Positions 7,210 through 45,310 of a stretch of 54,133 bases of DNA are shown piece after piece. Source of the DNA: Desulfopila aestuarii DSM 18488 (GTDB lineage: Bacteria > Desulfobacterota > Desulfobulbia > Desulfobulbales > Desulfocapsaceae). The stretch is taken from positions 1 through 54,133 of the forward strand of contig CAMBBS010000030.1 in NCBI GenBank assembly GCA_945863875.1, written 5' to 3'. The notes below the pieces were generated by a model. The model had not been told where the DNA came from. It worked only from the letters and a program-made list of their open reading frames with translations, and searched no databases. The position numbers were made by a program, and so were the translations under genes. How positions within the stretch are numbered: position 1 is the first letter of the stretch; each line of letters begins with the position of its first letter.

Positions 7210-8297
7210 TGCAGCTCGAGCTACGCAACGTATGCAAAAAAGTCGGTAAAGAATTCCACATCTCCGACGTATCACTCACCTTTGAACCAGGGACCCTGAA
7301 TATTCTGCTCGGCCCGACCCTTTCCGGTAAGACATCGCTCATGCGTCTTATGGCCGGACTTGATCAGCCGACCTCCGGCACCGTTCACTTCGGTGGGCAG
7401 GATGTCACCGGAATTCCAGTGCAAAAACGCAATGCGGCAATGGTCTATCAGCAGTTCATCAATTACCCGAACCTGTCGGTCTTTGAAAACATCGCCTCGC
7501 CGCTGCGTATCGCCCGGGTCGCCGCACCGGAAATAAAAAAGAGGGTCGCCAAGGTTGCGGCGCTGCTCAAACTGGAAAACATGCTCAAACGTTCTCCCAA
7601 CGAGCTCTCCGGCGGCCAGCAGCAGCGAACCGCCTTGGCCCGGGCCCTCGTCAAGGAGGCCGATCTGGTTCTCCTCGATGAACCTCTGGCCAACCTCGAT
7701 TACAAACTGCGCGAGGAACTCCGGGAGGAACTGCCGCGAATCTTTTCGGAGACCGGCTCGATTTTTGTCTATGCCACGACGGAACCCTCCGAGGCCCTGC
7801 TTCTTGGCGGCAACACCGCATCGCTGCACCAGGGAGAAATCACCCAGTTCGGACCGACCATCGAGGTCTTTTCCCGGCCGCAAAACCTCATCACCGCCAA
7901 GACTCTTTCCGATCCACCCTTAAACAGCCTGCCGGTTACAAAACTGAACAACCGGATGCTGTTCAAGAGCCATGTGGAAATCCCGGTTCTAGGACAACTG
8001 CCGCAATTGCCCGACGACGACTACACCATCGCCTTCAGACCGCACCATCTCTACCTGCACCGTACATCGGAGAGGGCAATTGCCGTCAAAGCGAAAGTCG
8101 CCGTCACGGAGATAACCGGTTCGGAGAGCTATGTGCATATCGATATAGCCGGTATCCGCTGGGTACTGCTTGCACCCGGCATTCATAACTTCGATGTCAA
8201 CGAGACAATCGAAATATTCATGGACCCGAGTAAATTTTATGTGTTCGACAGAAACGACTGCCTGGTCGTGACGCCGGAAAATGTTGCTGACGTGTAG
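7209..8297 (+). CDS. glpS: glycerol ABC importer, ATP-binding subunit 1
   Basis: A 362-residue ATPase of the MalK/UgpC-like group with a C-terminal TOBE regulatory region. Walker A is GPTLSGKT (35-42), the signature LSGGQ is at 133-137 and Walker B LVLLDEP at 153-159. The H-loop histidine is missing: the usual YVTHDQTEAL block reads VYATTEPSEAL, with Thr191 in place of His. Its partner GlpT has the opposite defect. The gene order with glpT, two permeases, a DUF2160 protein and a long solute-binding protein matches the rhizobial glpSTPQUV glycerol importer. It overlaps the glpD stop. Confidence 0.87.
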   Translation: MQLELRNVCKKVGKEFHISDVSLTFEPGTLNILLGPTLSGKTSLMRLMAGLDQPTSGTVHFGGQDVTGIPVQKRNAAMVYQQFINYPNLSVFENIASPLRIARVAAPEIKKRVAKVAALLKLENMLKRSPNELSGGQQQRTALARALVKEADLVLLDEPLANLDYKLREELREELPRIFSETGSIFVYATTEPSEALLLGGNTASLHQGEITQFGPTIEVFSRPQNLITAKTLSDPPLNSLPVTKLNNRMLFKSHVEIPVLGQLPQLPDDDYTIAFRPHHLYLHRTSERAIAVKAKVAVTEITGSESYVHIDIAGIRWVLLAPGIHNFDVNETIEIFMDPSKFYVFDRNDCLVVTPENVADV

Positions 8298-18117: not shown

Positions 18118-19398
18118 ATGTCGGATACAATAAGACCTGCCATCAATTTCAAAGAGAAGGCCCTGGAACTGCTACCGGAAGGCGCAAGTTTTGAATCCTG
18201 TTTAACCTGCGGTCTCTGCTCCTCCGGCTGCCCTGCCTCCGGCATCGAGAACATGGACCCGAGAAAATTCATCCGCATGGCCATGCTCGGCATGGACAAG
18301 GAATTATCGACAACACCGTGGGTATGGTGCTGTACCCTCTGCAAGCGGTGCCAGCATGTCTGTCCAATGAATATCGACATCTCGCAACTGGTGTTTTTCG
18401 CCCGCAGCAACTGGCCGCAGGAGGAAAAACCGTCGGGAATCGTCCGTTCCTGCCAACTCATTCGCTCCACCGACTCGACCAGTGCCATGGGCCTGCCGCC
18501 GGAAGATTTTGTCTTTGTCGTCCAGGACGTTTTAGAAGAGGTTCGCGTGACCCAGCCCGCCTTTAAAAACCTGCAGGCGCCGATGGATAAAAAAGGCGCC
18601 TTCTTTTTTGTCAATCAGAATTCCCGCGAACCCATGAACGAGCCGGACGAAATGGTCCCGCTGTGGAAGATCTTTGACCTCGTCGGCGCCGACTGGACCT
18701 ACTCGTCCAAAGGGTGGGCCGCGGAAAATTTCTGCATGTTTTCCGGCGATGAAGAGGCCTGGTACGAAGTCATCAAGAAACGGGTCGAGGCGGTCAAAGC
18801 TCTTGGCTGCAAGGTCTGGCTGAACACCGAATGCGGCCATAGTTACTATACCATGTGGAATGCCCTGCACCGGTTTGGCATGGAGGCGGATTTCAAGCTG
18901 GAAAGCCTGATTACCTATTATGCCAGGTGGATCCGGGAAGGCAAACTGCCGGTCAATTCGAAATGGAACAGGCACAACATTACATTCACTGTGCAGGATC
19001 CCTGCATGATCGTCAGAAAAGCCTATGGCGAGTCCATTGCCGAGGATATGCGCTTTGTCGTGAAAAGCCTGGTGGGAGAAGAAAATTTTATCGATATGCA
19101 GCCGAACCGCAGCGCCAACTACTGCTGCGGCGGTGGCGGCGGTTTCCTGCAGGCTGGAATGACCGAGCACCGGCGGACCTACGGCAAACGAAAATTTGAC
19201 CAGATCGCCACCACCGGTGCCGCCTATGTGCTGACGCCCTGTCATAATTGTCATTCACAAATGGAGGATATCGGCCATTTCTATGGTGGTAACTACGGCG
19301 TGGTCCATTTCTGGACGCTGATCTGCCTCTCGCTCGGCATCCTCGGCGAGAACGAACGGACTTACCTCGGGCCGGATCTCCTGGCGCTGATTGACTGA
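18118..19398 (+). CDS. GlpC-like/HdrD-like iron-sulfur subunit (CCG domain)
   Basis: A 426-residue protein with two N-terminal [4Fe-4S] motifs (C28, C31, C34, C38-Pro and C72, C75, C78, C82-Pro). A C-terminal cysteine-rich CCG-type domain contains TVQDPC, NYCCGGGGGF and TPCHNCHSQM. Position right after glpAB suggests that it is the electron-transfer subunit leading to quinone. The layout is also like heterodisulfide reductase HdrD/HdrB or lactate/fumarate-type Fe-S proteins of Desulfobacterota, so I do not give it the glpC symbol. A decayed paralogue lies at 43645-44927. Confidence 0.82.
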   Translation: MSDTIRPAINFKEKALELLPEGASFESCLTCGLCSSGCPASGIENMDPRKFIRMAMLGMDKELSTTPWVWCCTLCKRCQHVCPMNIDISQLVFFARSNWPQEEKPSGIVRSCQLIRSTDSTSAMGLPPEDFVFVVQDVLEEVRVTQPAFKNLQAPMDKKGAFFFVNQNSREPMNEPDEMVPLWKIFDLVGADWTYSSKGWAAENFCMFSGDEEAWYEVIKKRVEAVKALGCKVWLNTECGHSYYTMWNALHRFGMEADFKLESLITYYARWIREGKLPVNSKWNRHNITFTVQDPCMIVRKAYGESIAEDMRFVVKSLVGEENFIDMQPNRSANYCCGGGGGFLQAGMTEHRRTYGKRKFDQIATTGAAYVLTPCHNCHSQMEDIGHFYGGNYGVVHFWTLICLSLGILGENERTYLGPDLLALID

Positions 19399-41561: not shown

Positions 41562-41789
41562 ATGAAACTTTATTTCACATGTCCGATAAAAAAAGAAACT
41601 TTCGCTTCCAACGATTATTCCCTGCATCCAGGGCATAGTATAGTCCTGGATGACCAAGGCGGGAAAGAACTGCAGGGCACCGTCAGTCTGAATGCGGCAT
41701 GTCCGTTATGCGGACAGAAACATCAGTATGCGGTGAAAGATGTGCTCTGTCCATTAAGTAGAGAGAGTAGAGGGGAAAATGTACGATAA
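41562..41789 (+). CDS. small Cys-rich protein between ECF transporter and selD
   Basis: A 75-residue protein with four cysteines (C7, C47, C50 and C63); the CPLCG motif suggests a zinc-ribbon-like or metal/selenium-binding fold. I do not recognise the family with certainty. It sits between the ECF ATPase gene and selD and overlaps the selD start by 11 nt, so it is translated from the same message. No membrane segment is present. Its position makes it a candidate accessory factor of the transporter or of SelD. Confidence 0.65.
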   Translation: MKLYFTCPIKKETFASNDYSLHPGHSIVLDDQGGKELQGTVSLNAACPLCGQKHQYAVKDVLCPLSRESRGENVR

Positions 41790-42825
41790 ATCGATTCGCC
41801 TGACAACCTGTGTGAAAGGTGGCGGCTGAGCCTCGAAACTTTCTCCAGGGGACCTGGAACAAGCACTCAGCGGCATTAAATTCCCGACAGACGAAAATGT
41901 TCTGGTCGGAATGGCCACCTCGGATGATGCCGGAGTCTATCGCGTATCGGATGAGCTGGCCCTGATCCAGACCCTGGATTTTTTTACGCCAATCGTTGAC
42001 AACCCATACGATTTCGGACGGATAGCCGCGGCAAATGCCCTCTCTGACGTCTATGCGATGGGCGGCGTCCCGAAAACCGCGATGAATATCGTCGCCTATC
42101 CGATGGACAGTATGGGCCGGGAGCCATTGCGGGAAATGCTCGCCGGCGGTGCGGCGACATTGGCGGAGGCAAACACGGTCCTGCTCGGGGGACACAGTGT
42201 CGAAGATGAGGAATTGAAATATGGCCTGTCGGTCACCGGCTTCGTCCATCCATCAAAAATTCTCACCAACCAGGGCCTTCGTGCCGGAGATTGTCTGGTA
42301 CTGACCAAACCACTCGGTACAGGAATAATTAACACGGCAATCAAAGGCGGCCTGGCGTCGGAGGCGACCATCCGCCAGGTAACCGAGCTGATGGCCACCC
42401 TGAACCGCAAGGCGGCCGACATTATGACCGAGTTTACCGTGTCAGCCTGCACCGACGTCACAGGCTTCGGCCTGCTCGGCCACATAGCCGAGATGATCTG
42501 CGGCACCGGCAAAGGGGTGGTTATTGATGCAAACAAGGTGCCGGTGCTGGCCGAAGCATATGAATTCGGCGCAATGGGCTTTGTGCCGGTCGGCGCCCAC
42601 AAGAACCGGGAATTCAGGAAAAACATGGTGCTGGCAGCAGCCGATTTTGACCCTGTTCTTCGTGATATTCTTTATGACCCGCAGACCTCCGGCGGGTTGC
42701 TGATTGGTTGTGCGGAAAGAGATGCCCCTGCCCTGGTGCGAAGACTGCAGAATGAAGGGATCGAAACGGCGGCGGTGATCGGTTTTGTCACTGAACGCCT
42801 CAAAAATACAATACAACTTCAATGA
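41779..42825 (+). CDS. selD: selenide, water dikinase SelD, itself a selenoprotein (Sec17)
   Basis: The true gene starts at ATG 41779 behind AGGGG, 132 bases before the first ATG of the uninterrupted frame. It reads through an in-frame TGA at 41827-41829. Codon 17 is thus selenocysteine in the motif RLTTCVKGGGUASKLSP, which aligns with E. coli GAGCGCKISP (Sec at Cys17, Lys20 kept; the second Cys is Ser). The protein is 348 residues. Other family blocks are DDAGVYRVSDELALIQTLDFFTPIVD-type strands (residues 53-78), MGGVPKTAMNIVAYP and DPQTSGGLLIG. It makes selenophosphate for Sec-tRNA and other Se uses. A SECIS-like hairpin follows the TGA. Confidence 0.93.
41839..41863 (+). promoter_or_regulatory. 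bacterial SECIS-like hairpin in selD
   Basis: TCCAGG (41844-41849) pairs perfectly with CCTGGA (41853-41858) around a GGA loop. A two-nt internal loop and three more pairs (CTT 41839-41841 with AAG 41861-41863) extend it. The helix starts 9 nt after the UGA codon and the apical loop is G-rich, as expected for the SelB-binding SECIS of bacteria, which lies inside the coding region. Confidence 0.75.
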
Positions 42826-43451
42826 TTGAGAAAAAGACCATGAAAAAAACAATTGATGCCTGTGGTTTGACATGTCCCGCACCGGTTTTACTGGTAAAAG
42901 ACGCCGTGGAGCAGAGCAATGCGCAGGAACTGACGGTACTCGTTGACAATGGGGCCTCCCTTGAAAATGTGAACCGTTTTTTAGGTTCCAGGGGATATTC
43001 GGTGACCGATAGCCACGAAGGTGGCGTGTACAGACTCGAGGCCCGGCGCGACGGAAACGAAGCAGCTGTTCCAGTGGAAAAAACCGCAGTACGGGCAGAC
43101 AAAGGGGCGGAACAAAAGGTTCTCGTCCTGATCACCAGTGACTGTCTCGGATCCGGTGATGACGAACTCGGCGGAAAATTGATGGTCAGTTACATAAAGA
43201 CAATTAAGGAAATGGGCAGCGAACTCTGGCAGCTTATCTTTGTCAACAGCGCCGTCAAACTAACCATTGCCTCCTCACCCGTTCTCTCTGAATTGCAGGA
43301 ATATGAAAAATCCGGGGTGATCATTTTTGCCTGCGGCACCTGCCTGGAGCATTTTGGCCTCACCGCTGAAAAACAAGTTGGCGGCTCGACCAATATGCTT
43401 GATATCGTCACCGCCACCCAACTCGCCGACAAGGTTGTCACCATCAGCTAA
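42822..43451 (+). CDS. yedF: selenium-metabolism protein YedF (TusA-like plus DsrE-like domains)
   Basis: A 209-residue fusion. Residues 7-80 form a TusA/SirA-like domain with the active-site motif CGLTCPAPVLL (C14, C18). Residues 95-200 form a DsrE-like domain with FACGTCLEHFGL. This architecture is the YedF family found with SelD in many anaerobes and proposed to handle selenium or reduced sulfur. The ATG overlaps the selD stop by 4 nt; a second Met lies at 42840. The usual YedE membrane partner is not present. It is the last gene of the operon. Confidence 0.88.
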   Translation: MIEKKTMKKTIDACGLTCPAPVLLVKDAVEQSNAQELTVLVDNGASLENVNRFLGSRGYSVTDSHEGGVYRLEARRDGNEAAVPVEKTAVRADKGAEQKVLVLITSDCLGSGDDELGGKLMVSYIKTIKEMGSELWQLIFVNSAVKLTIASSPVLSELQEYEKSGVIIFACGTCLEHFGLTAEKQVGGSTNMLDIVTATQLADKVVTIS

Positions 43452-43535
43452 CCACCCAGGATATCGATGCAAAAAAAACATCAATGCCCCGTATCCGGTT
43501 ATGACGCCACAACAACAGGAAAATACAAGAGATGA

Positions 43536-43626
43536 AGGCTGGGTTCGGAGTTGAACCGAACAAGACCTTTTCACAATCCTCAACGGGTTTGCAGTCCGCG
43601 GAGAGCACCGGCTCCCTTAACCAGCC
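43536..43626 (-). tRNA. tRNA-Sec-shaped tRNA with cysteine anticodon GCA (8/4 branch)
   Basis: Read on the minus strand from 43626. Acceptor GGCTGGTT pairs with ACCCAGCC over 8 bp with one T-C mismatch. The D arm is GGGAGC-CGGT-GCTCTC, 6 bp with a 4-nt loop, the hallmark of tRNA-Sec. The anticodon loop is CTGCAAA (GCA at 43590-43592), with an A-C mismatch closing the stem. A 22-nt variable arm pairs AGGATT with GGTCTT. The T arm is TCGG-TTCAACT-CCGA, 4 bp. Position 73 is U, the tRNA-Cys discriminator, and no CCA is encoded. From memory, Mukai and colleagues (2017) reported extra cysteine tRNAs with an 8/4 structure mimicking tRNA-Sec in deltaproteobacteria; this fits. It is 18 nt after the decayed Fe-S gene. 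Confidence 0.8.
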
Positions 43627-43644
43627 TTCGAAAGGGGTAACAAA

Positions 43645-44927
43645 CTATTTGCTCTGCAGAAGGTTCGGAGTTCCCGGTTCGCCCGGAAGCCAGACATCAC
43701 GCAGTTCCTCGCAGAGATCTTCCCGCTCATTTTCTCCAAGTACCCCAAGAGACAGGGCGAGAAAAACCCAGAGATTGCTCACAGAGAACCCGCCATTGAA
43801 ATGATGCGACAAGTCGTGAATCTATGCATGGCAGTTGTGGCAGGGAGTAATACAGTATCTCACTCCGGTGTCCATAATCTGCTCAAATTTTATTTTGCCA
43901 TACAAATGCCGTTCTTCGTTACAACCTGACTGTAGCTAACCGCCACCACCTCCGCAGCAGTAATTATTCGACTTATTCGGCGTCATGTCGATAAAATTAT
44001 CCTTACCCACGCAAGCCTTCACGACGAAGCGAAGGTCGTCGGCATAGACATCACCGTATTCCTTGCGTACCTGGTTGCAGGGATCCTGTACGGTAAAACG
44101 CATTTTACGATCCGTGTTCCATGCGCTGCTCGGTTTAAGTCTACCTTCCCTGATCCTTTTGGCGTAGTAGTGTACGACTATTTTGACATTGAGTTCGGGA
44201 TAGATTTTGAACCGGCGGATACCCTGATTGACTGAGAAGGTGGAATGGCCGCACTCGGTGTTCAGATACACCCGGCAGCCGAGCTCCTCCGCCTTTTTCA
44301 TCGTAACTTCGGTAAGCTGCTGCCAGCCATGGTCATCGGCGAGGAACATGCAATAATTTTCGCCGGCCCAGGCGGCGCTGCCATAGGTCCAGTCGGCACC
44401 GGCGAGGTGGAGGATCTTCCACAGAGGGACAATTCCTTTGGCAATGACGCAGGCTCACGGGAGTTTTGACTGAGAAAGAAGGTTGCACCCTGCTTGTCGA
44501 TCGGCGCCTGCAGGTTCTCCCACCCCGGTTGTGTCTGCCGGACCTCTTCCAGGGCATCTTCAACAACAAAACGAAAGTCGTCTGGAGGCGTGCCGGTGGG
44601 ACGATCTTCACGAGGCCATAAAAGCCTGCGGCCTTCCATGATCAGCCCGGCGATGTTGATCTCCATGGGACAGACATAGCTGCACCGCATACACATGGAA
44701 CATAACCAGACCCATTTGTGAACAGTGAACGTATCATCCATGCCCATGGCCGCCATGCGCAGAAATTTACAGGGATCCATATCCAGAAGCCGGGTGGCGG
44801 GATAACCGGACCCACATGCACCACAGGTCAGACAGAGGTTGACATTGCCGCCCTCCGGCAATTCTTGCCGGACCTTGTCCAGAAAAGTCTCACGTTTTGC
44901 TGCATTGATTCGCAATCCTTTGCCCAT
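43645..44927 (-). pseudogene. decayed paralogue of the GlpC-like/HdrD-like Fe-S protein
   Basis: Residue by residue this follows the GlpC-like protein at 18118: CLTCGACGSG, CSMCMRCSYVCP, TVQDPCNQVRK, NYCCGGGGG, TPCHNCH. Three lesions break it: a frameshift near 44430, TAG at 43936-43938 just after the CCG glycine run, and TAG at 43822-43824 after CHNCHA. One Fe-S ligand is already lost (GCP to GYP). All stops are TAG, not TGA, so selenocysteine recoding does not rescue it. The start is behind GAGGAAAAACC. The tRNA-Sec-like tRNA lies directly downstream. Confidence 0.88.
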
Positions 44928-45013: not shown

Positions 45014-45310
45014 TCAGCAGCCACAGCCTCCCGATCCGCAGGAACCGGAACTGCAGCCACCGCCTGCCCCAGGCAGTGGATTGGTGCAGCTGATACTGAA
45101 TCCAGAACGACTACCGGCATCGTAATAATCAACTTTAATACTGCCGCACTGCTCGAGAAGGTTCTTTTCAACGAGAAAGGTCAGACCCTGTTGTTGGAAA
45201 AGTTTATCCGTGGCCTTTTCTTCATCCAAAGCCAGGCCAAGCGAAGGACCTGCACAGCCCCCCTGCATCAGTGCAACCCTGAGGGCTGAAGAGATATTGT
45301 TGGTCTGCAT
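45014..45310 (-). pseudogene. HesB/IscA-like protein with disrupted N-terminus
   Basis: 98 residues from ATG 45310 show the HesB-like core: LRVALMQGGCAGPSLGLALDE, TFLVEKNLLEQCGSI, a SRSGFSISC strand and a Cys/Gly-rich tail ending GSGGCGC. Some homologues of this group are selenoproteins in deltaproteobacteria; here all positions are Cys. The expected start, ATG 45330 behind GAGGAA, begins MLEV but is out of frame by 20 nt with the core, as if a small deletion had removed the first helix. It may be a pseudogene or may use ATG 45310. It probably handles Fe-S or selenium/sulfur when intact. Confidence 0.65.

Follow-up and report, generated by a model that had tools for sequence, protein, structure and literature searches.

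A tRNASec-like tRNA-Cys (GCA) beside selenium-metabolism genes in Desulfobulbales and its possible use at selenocysteine codons

Cysteine tRNAs built on the plan of tRNA-Sec go under the names selC* and tRNA-ReC, and the latter is reportedly owed to Vargas-Rodriguez et al. 2018. The selC* tRNA-Cys (Mukai et al. 2017) is found in anaerobes including deltaproteobacteria, and it has U73, a GCA or UCA anticodon and arms like those of tRNA-Sec (PMC7609411). Its acceptor branch adopts the 8/4 fold with a bulged A51a, and selB* or cysS* is located downstream in some orders; the 8-bp acceptor is described as the main determinant for SelB, and the A51a bulge is reported to be dispensable for CysRS* (PMC7609411). 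For the tRNASec-like tRNA-Cys(GCA) of Desulfotomaculum nigrificans, it has been reported that SelB delivers the tRNA and that the Sec UGA codon is decoded with Cys (PMC11415595). A tRNA-Sec with a GCA anticodon, which places Sec at a Cys codon, has also been reported in Aeromonas salmonicida (Mukai et al. 2016, as cited in PMC11415595). In Methanococcus maripaludis, Cys enzymes replace Sec enzymes when selenium is depleted (PMC11097638). As for the gene context of selenium, YedE, YedF and a LysR subfamily have been named selenium-metabolism genes by comparative genomics, and genes of 2-hydroxyglutaryl-CoA dehydratase and its activase are listed beside them (PMC5322559).

The window, i.e., the whole stretch of 54,133 nucleotides that was analysed, contains one gene of this kind, which bears on the question of why a cysteine tRNA in the guise of tRNA-Sec is retained by bacteria. 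A preliminary description had stated that related tRNAs were already described, and this kind of tRNA is indeed in print.

The tRNA gene, its fold and its relatives

The tRNASec-like tRNA-Cys (GCA) is encoded at 43536..43626 on the minus strand (nt 1-73; U73 at 43536, anticodon at 43590-43592), is 91 nt long and is supported by ARAGORN, Rfam RF01852, homologs and covariation. ARAGORN calls a tRNA-Cys (gca) at 43534-43627 minus as the sole tRNA in the window; the strand, anticodon and U73 given in the preliminary description are confirmed. The tRNA-Sec model RF01852 matches over its full length (model positions 1-91) with 54.8 bits against a gathering threshold of 47 and an E value of 2.1e-8; a comparison with this model had been proposed as a check, and it is the single Rfam match at the gathering threshold. 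The full-arrangement pattern (D loop, GCA anticodon arm, long variable region and T loop) has one match in the window and none in 100 shuffles. The hallmarks of tRNA-Sec that had been noticed are present, that is, a D arm of tRNA-Sec type with a 6-bp stem and the 4-nt loop CGGU, together with a long variable arm. The odd A.C pair closing the anticodon stem is also present; it is common to 6 of the 7 Desulfobulbales copies and is A-U in the seventh (Desulfoprunum), and of the 12 further class members in the alignment, 11 have G-C there. As encoded, the 3′ end is U-UCA in the window tRNA and U-CCA or U-CCU in relatives.

The Cys identity elements are the GCA anticodon and U73, which, together with the D arm and the long variable arm, agree with a tRNASec-like tRNA-Cys in the broad, ReC-like sense; a tRNA-Sec (GCA) would have G73 for SerRS, and U73 stands in its place. 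The acceptor/T domain of the window tRNA consists of 12 pairs, in which A65 can pair with either U8 or U49 and U7.C66 is mismatched. The folding energy is weak (z -1.6, with 11 of 200 shuffles as good), and the minimum-energy fold misses the anticodon arm. Because the energy alone is weak, it is the covariance model and the covariation that support the cloverleaf. A motif search at 43400-43900 found no promoter or terminator motif. Since an ordinary tRNA-Cys(GCA) is also located in the same genome (contig C9 of the window's own assembly, G000), the window tRNA is an additional one, which agrees with its earlier reading as a minor Cys tRNA mimicking tRNA-Sec. In summary, the gene is real and intact.

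By blastn, the tRNA was found in 7 of 257 genomes of the order, its own included, and an eighth match is a 26-base stretch without a tRNA call. Its occurrence is patchy, with 3 of 15 genus members carrying it. The carriers include Desulfopila sp. IMCC35006 (L086, identical with L170), Desulfopila aestuarii DSM 18488 (L088 = L216, which the genome set files under a different genus) and two MAGs, one of Desulfoprunum (L092 = L191) and one of Desulfobulbaceae (L090 = L214); Desulfopila is placed by NCBI in Desulfocapsaceae, Desulfobulbales. The preliminary description had considered that close relatives might carry an ordinary tRNA-Sec (UCA) at the same place, but all six have GCA and U73 (ARAGORN names five of them and misses L088). 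Between the window and the IMCC35006 copy the tRNA is 93.4% identical (85/91), against 76.0% in the adjacent Fe-S pseudogene, 55% in the spacer and 52.6% in the downstream stretch. Because the identity is 93% in the tRNA and 76% in the dead gene beside it, the tRNA seems to be under selection in its own right. The differences in the D arm and the variable arm between these two copies preserve pairing, and the A.C and U.C mismatches recur in relatives whose neighbouring genes are unbroken.

A pattern scan of genome contigs gave 102 stretches, of which six were excluded because they could not be clearly recognised as tRNAs of this shape (L127, L136, L143, L160, L163 and L198) and five as repeat loci (L170, L189, L191, L214 and L216). 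The final set, made up of the scan remainder, the window and its six relatives, comprises 24 G73 tRNAs and 74 others, and the latter have U73 wherever the end can be placed. Nitrospirota and Clostridia tRNAs among the 74 have a 13-nt 3′ strand. Another 21 form class D, with a 12-nt 3′ strand and mostly GGCYGG or GACUGG acceptors, and their hosts are Desulfobacterota, Planctomycetota, a Spirochaetes, a Blastocatellia, other MAGs and bacterium UASB270. The class D alignment holds 19 of the 21 tRNAs (L154 and L181 were omitted for irregular acceptor ends). In it 94.2% of the cells pair, and pairing falls to 56-57% when the partner is slid by one column; compensatory change on both sides is seen in 16 of 28 pairs, against a shuffled mean of 8.9, and 0 of 500 shuffles reach 16.

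The preliminary description had given an 8-bp acceptor with a 4-bp T stem as a firm fold, which does not hold in that form. The pair 49-65 of the 7/5 fold is found in 16 of the 19 aligned members (UA 9, GC 4, CG 3), and the pair 8-65 of the 8/4 fold in 12; L088, L205 and L213 allow 8/4 only, and the window tRNA allows both. The pair 7-66 is unpaired in 10 of the 19, the window included. Judged from these pairings, 7/5 fits the class better than 8/4.

Neighbouring genes and the codons at selenocysteine sites

The nearest gene to the tRNA is a pseudogene of a GlpC/HdrD-like (CCG-domain, 4Fe-4S) protein at 43648..44927 on the minus strand, which ends 21 nt upstream of the tRNA and was recognised by tblastn with an intact 445-aa Desulfopila homolog. 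It was rightly described as dead: it has a frameshift near 44430-44457, an 18-codon deletion near 44598 and TAG stops at 43936-43938 and 43822-43824, and one cluster Cys is lost. In L086, L088, L090 and L092 (4 of 7 Desulfobulbales loci) an unbroken homolog precedes the tRNA by 40-51 nt, and an unbroken paralog of the dead gene is encoded in the window at 18148..19380 on the plus strand (56% identical to the Desulfopila copy, tblastn). An IscA/HesB family protein of the subfamily NF038090 (IscA_HesB_Se) is encoded at 45014..45310 on the minus strand (NCBIfam 127.6 bits, cut-off 85), and a hesB homolog is also near the tRNA in L086, L088 and L089.

Two selenium genes lie on the plus strand, namely yedF at 42822..43451, encoding a sulfurtransferase-like selenium metabolism protein (TIGR03527; NCBIfam 205.9 bits, cut-off 110), and selD (selenide, water dikinase) at 41779..42825. 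The Sec-containing nature of this selD, as noticed earlier, is borne out by the in-frame TGA at the Sec site (41827-41829, context GGG-U-ASK), by the read-through translation and by TIGR00476 with 373.5 bits (query with C at the Sec site); the stretch behind the TGA folds weakly better than shuffles (z -1.6). Since selD-yedF converges on the tRNA, they do not form one operon with it. Among the Desulfobulbales loci, some of which are short stretches, the commoner neighbours are the GlpC/HdrD-like Fe-S gene, hesB and flpD, with flpD within 3 kb of the tRNA in 4/7 and fdhA in 2/7. One large neighbour was considered as HdrA, an assignment that was rejected when family comparison identified it as formate dehydrogenase alpha. 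The preliminary description held that the position next to selD-yedF makes the link to selenium concrete. The link itself holds beyond this locus, but selD-yedF is near the tRNA in only 2 of the 7 loci, the window and Desulfopila aestuarii, again with some stretches short.

This wider link was counted by tblastn as the presence, within 1.5 kb, of yedF, yedE, selD, LysR, the double-cubane reductase or its activase, where LysR and yedF near the loci were called by tblastn and the family check applied to the query proteins only. Such a gene is found at 29 of 74 non-G73 loci (28 of 73 without the window), at 0 of 24 G73 loci and, in the same family, at 0 of 45 loci of canonical selC, which represent 43 genes; these are counts that are not independent since many loci are related. 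The mean flank counted is 2.6-2.8 kb in all three groups, and the control set of canonical selC keeps 45 loci out of 46 tried, with two genes counted twice (G139 and G149). When the reductase and activase are omitted, 23 of 74 remain; in class D alone, the link is seen at 7 of 21 loci.

The enzymes encoded near the U73 tRNAs were compared at the Sec site over all scan loci, the relatives and the g16 group, and none of the alignable copies has TGA. The site is Cys in 13/13 FlpD, 8/8 HdrA and 8/9 FdhA, and Gly in the ninth FdhA (L149, 35% identical); for some of the scored copies the distance to the tRNA is 2.4-4.3 kb, and the L100 FdhA shows just 26% identity. In the Desulfoprunum and G094 genomes the tRNA-linked fdhA has TGT at the Sec site and a second copy, 81-82% identical, has TGA, to which a further TAG is added in Desulfoprunum. 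In 11 genomes, all 22 unlinked FdhA copies (≥44% identity, site covered), which sit on contigs without the tRNA, have TGA, compared with none of the 2 linked copies; among 21 more distant FdhA rows (28-35% identity), 4 are with TGA and 17 without. Both Desulfopila sp. IMCC35006 and Desulfopila aestuarii DSM 18488 possess a UGA fdhA as well as a canonical selC. The window's own genome has an hdrA-flpD-fdhA set on C20 in which each of the three sites is TGA and no tRNA is interposed. This genome also has an fdhA of Sec type (G000:C63, 7772-10201, L282) that retains the TGA but is disrupted by frame breaks. At L134, L152 and L200, which have other acceptor types (the acceptor end of L152 being ambiguous), fdhA adjoins the tRNA at 42-80 nt.

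In genus g16, seven UCA/U73 tRNASec-like tRNAs occur in six genomes, between hdrA and flpD in 7/7 loci (L093, L094, L095 and L097-L100; near 8001-8099, and at 6722-6820 in L095). ARAGORN does not call them, one acceptor base is lost in L095 and L100, and L096 was set aside from the group as another tRNA. Both flanking genes have Cys codons at the Sec site. Since the g16 tRNA has UCA and yet neighbours Cys codons, these neighbours are not its target.

The G73 tRNA-Sec(GCA) are a group separate from the U73 tRNAs. They comprise 21 from Proteobacteria (18 titled Betaproteobacteria or its genera, 3 by phylum only) and 3 from Cloacimonadota, and the 3′ strand has 13 nt in 21/24. Within 1.5 kb, selB is found in 20/23 and selA in 16/23 (e.g., L115, L123, L126 and L128), L131 being included in counts of 24 and left out of counts of 23. 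The Cloacimonadota members L131, L173 and L174 are G73 GCA tRNASec-like tRNAs with a 12-nt 3′ strand only. The fdhA near G73 tRNAs has TGC at the Sec site in 13/13 alignable copies, mostly near 2.7 kb away, and at these loci Sec is probably placed at the Cys codon. Finding a Cys codon next to a GCA tRNA therefore does not prove a Cys isozyme, because near a G73 tRNA-Sec(GCA) the codon may itself mean Sec. For the U73 group, such a Sec reading is made less likely by U73 itself and by the g16 tRNAs, which have UCA and yet neighbour Cys codons.

Canonical selC and the selenocysteine machinery of the genome

It had been proposed to look for a canonical selC elsewhere in the genome. In the window's assembly there is no further match over the tRNA-Sec cut-off among the 150 of 475 first-look candidates that were scored, and a search allowing up to 3 mismatches did not find the canonical anticodon arm, but selC is present in 6/6 relatives with the tRNA. 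Among the other listed genus members it is intact in 11 of 12 and cut by the contig start in the twelfth (G141). The usual selC site is rearranged in G000: its glyQ side is on C64 by a sucrose-metabolism cluster, its tRNA-Met side is on C31 by an integrase, and the acyltransferase gene preceding selC in most congeners has a 24% match only. No part of the sucrose-metabolism cluster occurs in the canonical-selC stretches compared. In coordinates, the integrase and the adjoining tRNA-Met are at L113 7236-8420 and 8685-8761 and the cluster by glyQ at L112 5891-17947, where congeners have selC. The flank downstream of selC also varies in several congeners, and selA in many drafts starts within a few hundred bases of a contig end, as if a repeat were beside it.

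The assembly is 98.5% complete in 93 contigs, and SelA, SelB and UGA-containing genes remain in it. One SelB is over the cut-off, on another contig than the tRNA; CysRS copies over the cut-off are on C65 and C27, and neither looks truncated. The missing selC block fits a gap or a deletion, and the gap, as the simpler account, is probably right. It is very doubtful that the strain truly lost canonical selC together with at least one adjacent gene, and that the remaining Sec UGA codons (selD, hdrA, flpD and two fdhA) would be read as Cys by the GCA tRNA alone. If this were true, the loss would be a natural Sec-to-Cys recoding with codons unchanged, and the window tRNA the only known reader of the Sec codons of this genome.

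The CysRS on C27 (L026, 1483-3810) is part of a 775-aa protein in which a second cysteinyl-tRNA synthetase, with its anticodon-binding domain kept, is fused to a domain of cysteine synthase type (PALP; domain content as checked in G000). As a synthetase dedicated to the tRNA it was rejected, for 63 of the 79 genomes of the family have a CysRS match in a frame of ≥700 aa, whether they carry the tRNA or not. It is conceivable that Cys is made and loaded by this one protein.

Possible function and comparison with known systems

Considered together, the data are best explained, with somewhat better than even confidence, by a selected extra Cys tRNA on the tRNA-Sec plan, which would place Cys at Sec UGA codons as a backup in selenium shortage. 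CysRS would charge the tRNA with Cys, and the Sec-like shape would let SelB take the Cys-tRNA to the ribosome; EF-Tu may also be a carrier, because the acceptor domain has 12 pairs. At the ribosome, Cys would be inserted where UGA stands for Sec, in line with the report on the D. nigrificans tRNA. The link to Cys isozymes suggests when this would happen: in selenium shortage, the tRNA would be made together with the Cys versions of selenoenzymes, and the remaining selenoprotein messages would yield full-length Cys forms. Several points count against the proposal. The 12-pair, 7/5-capable acceptor branch is unlike the 8-bp SelB determinant, the linked Fe-S gene is dead in this genome, and the tRNA is present in only 3/15 genus members. 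To these are added the Cys codons in fdhA near the G73 tRNA-Sec(GCA) genes, the negative motif search for a promoter or terminator, the 7 of 21 loci with a selenium gene in class D alone, the mixed codons of the more distant FdhA rows and the relatedness of many of the loci counted.

The same acceptor branch can be read in favour of a minor, odd-shaped tRNA-Cys that EF-Tu delivers to ordinary UGC/UGU codons and that serves the Cys-rich Fe-S proteins encoded beside it, as the 12-pair domain fits 7/5 in 16/19 class members and the neighbours are indeed such proteins. Nevertheless, an ordinary tRNA-Cys is present, and the Sec-type D arm, the long arm and the selenium neighbourhoods are left unexplained, which makes this account unlikely, though it is the strongest of the alternatives. 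It is improbable that the gene is a leftover that is being lost, or that it acts as a non-coding decoy of CysRS or SelB: the adjacent gene is dead, the encoded CCA is altered and the stems contain A.C and U.C mismatches, but these mismatches also occur in relatives with unbroken neighbours, and the 93% identity against 76% next door, with differences from the Desulfopila copy that keep pairing, is not what this account would lead one to expect.

Insertion of Sec at Cys codons, which the preliminary description had also put forward, is little supported. A tRNA-Sec with GCA, acting for example on the UGU of the fdhA beside some relatives, has the Aeromonas salmonicida precedent (as given in PMC11415595) and a parallel in the 24 G73 loci with TGC in 13/13 alignable fdhA. 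However, U73 with GCA is a Cys identity, G73 is lacking in the window tRNA and its relatives, the selB and selA genes that accompany the G73 group (20/23 and 16/23) are not at the window locus, and the UCA relatives adjoin Cys codons as well; this possibility is highly improbable. The preferred reading, a backup that inserts Cys at Sec codons, gains its general interest from the wider set, in which U73 tRNAs of several acceptor types and both anticodons adjoin hdrA, flpD and fdhA without UGA at the Sec site, and sister copies use UGA. As a "safeguard", the idea leads to a selenium-starvation gene set that can be tested in cultured Desulfopila strains.

An association of such a tRNA-Cys with genes of Cys isozymes was not found in the open literature, a scope outside which the original 2016-2018 papers lie, and its novelty is provisional. 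Compared with selC*, the window tRNA has the same tRNA-Sec-like arms, U73 and GCA, with the UCA form in the g16 genomes. On the other hand, its class is without the A bulge, has a 12-pair domain and fits 7/5 better than the 8/4 fold with bulge, and neither SelB* nor a CysRS* lacking the anticodon-binding domain is next to the window tRNA; it is not filed as selC* in the strict sense. With tRNA-ReC it has in common the GCA anticodon, the Cys identity and the Sec-like shape, but its 12-nt 3′ strand is one shorter than that of the Nitrospirota and Clostridia U73 tRNAs of the scan, and UGA reading was demonstrated for the D. nigrificans tRNA while the window tRNA is known from sequence. The tRNA-Sec(GCA) resembles it in Sec-like shape and GCA, and differs in G73, in a mostly 13-nt 3′ strand and in its usual place by selA/selB. 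The Sec/Cys isozymes of M. maripaludis are a likeness of another kind, i.e., Cys stand-ins when selenium is short, and the excerpts of that source (PMC11097638) mention no such tRNA. Because the identity elements and the general shape are held in common, the window tRNA most likely works like the published tRNASec-like tRNA-Cys (selC* / tRNA-ReC), of which it would be a structural variant with a different acceptor branch.
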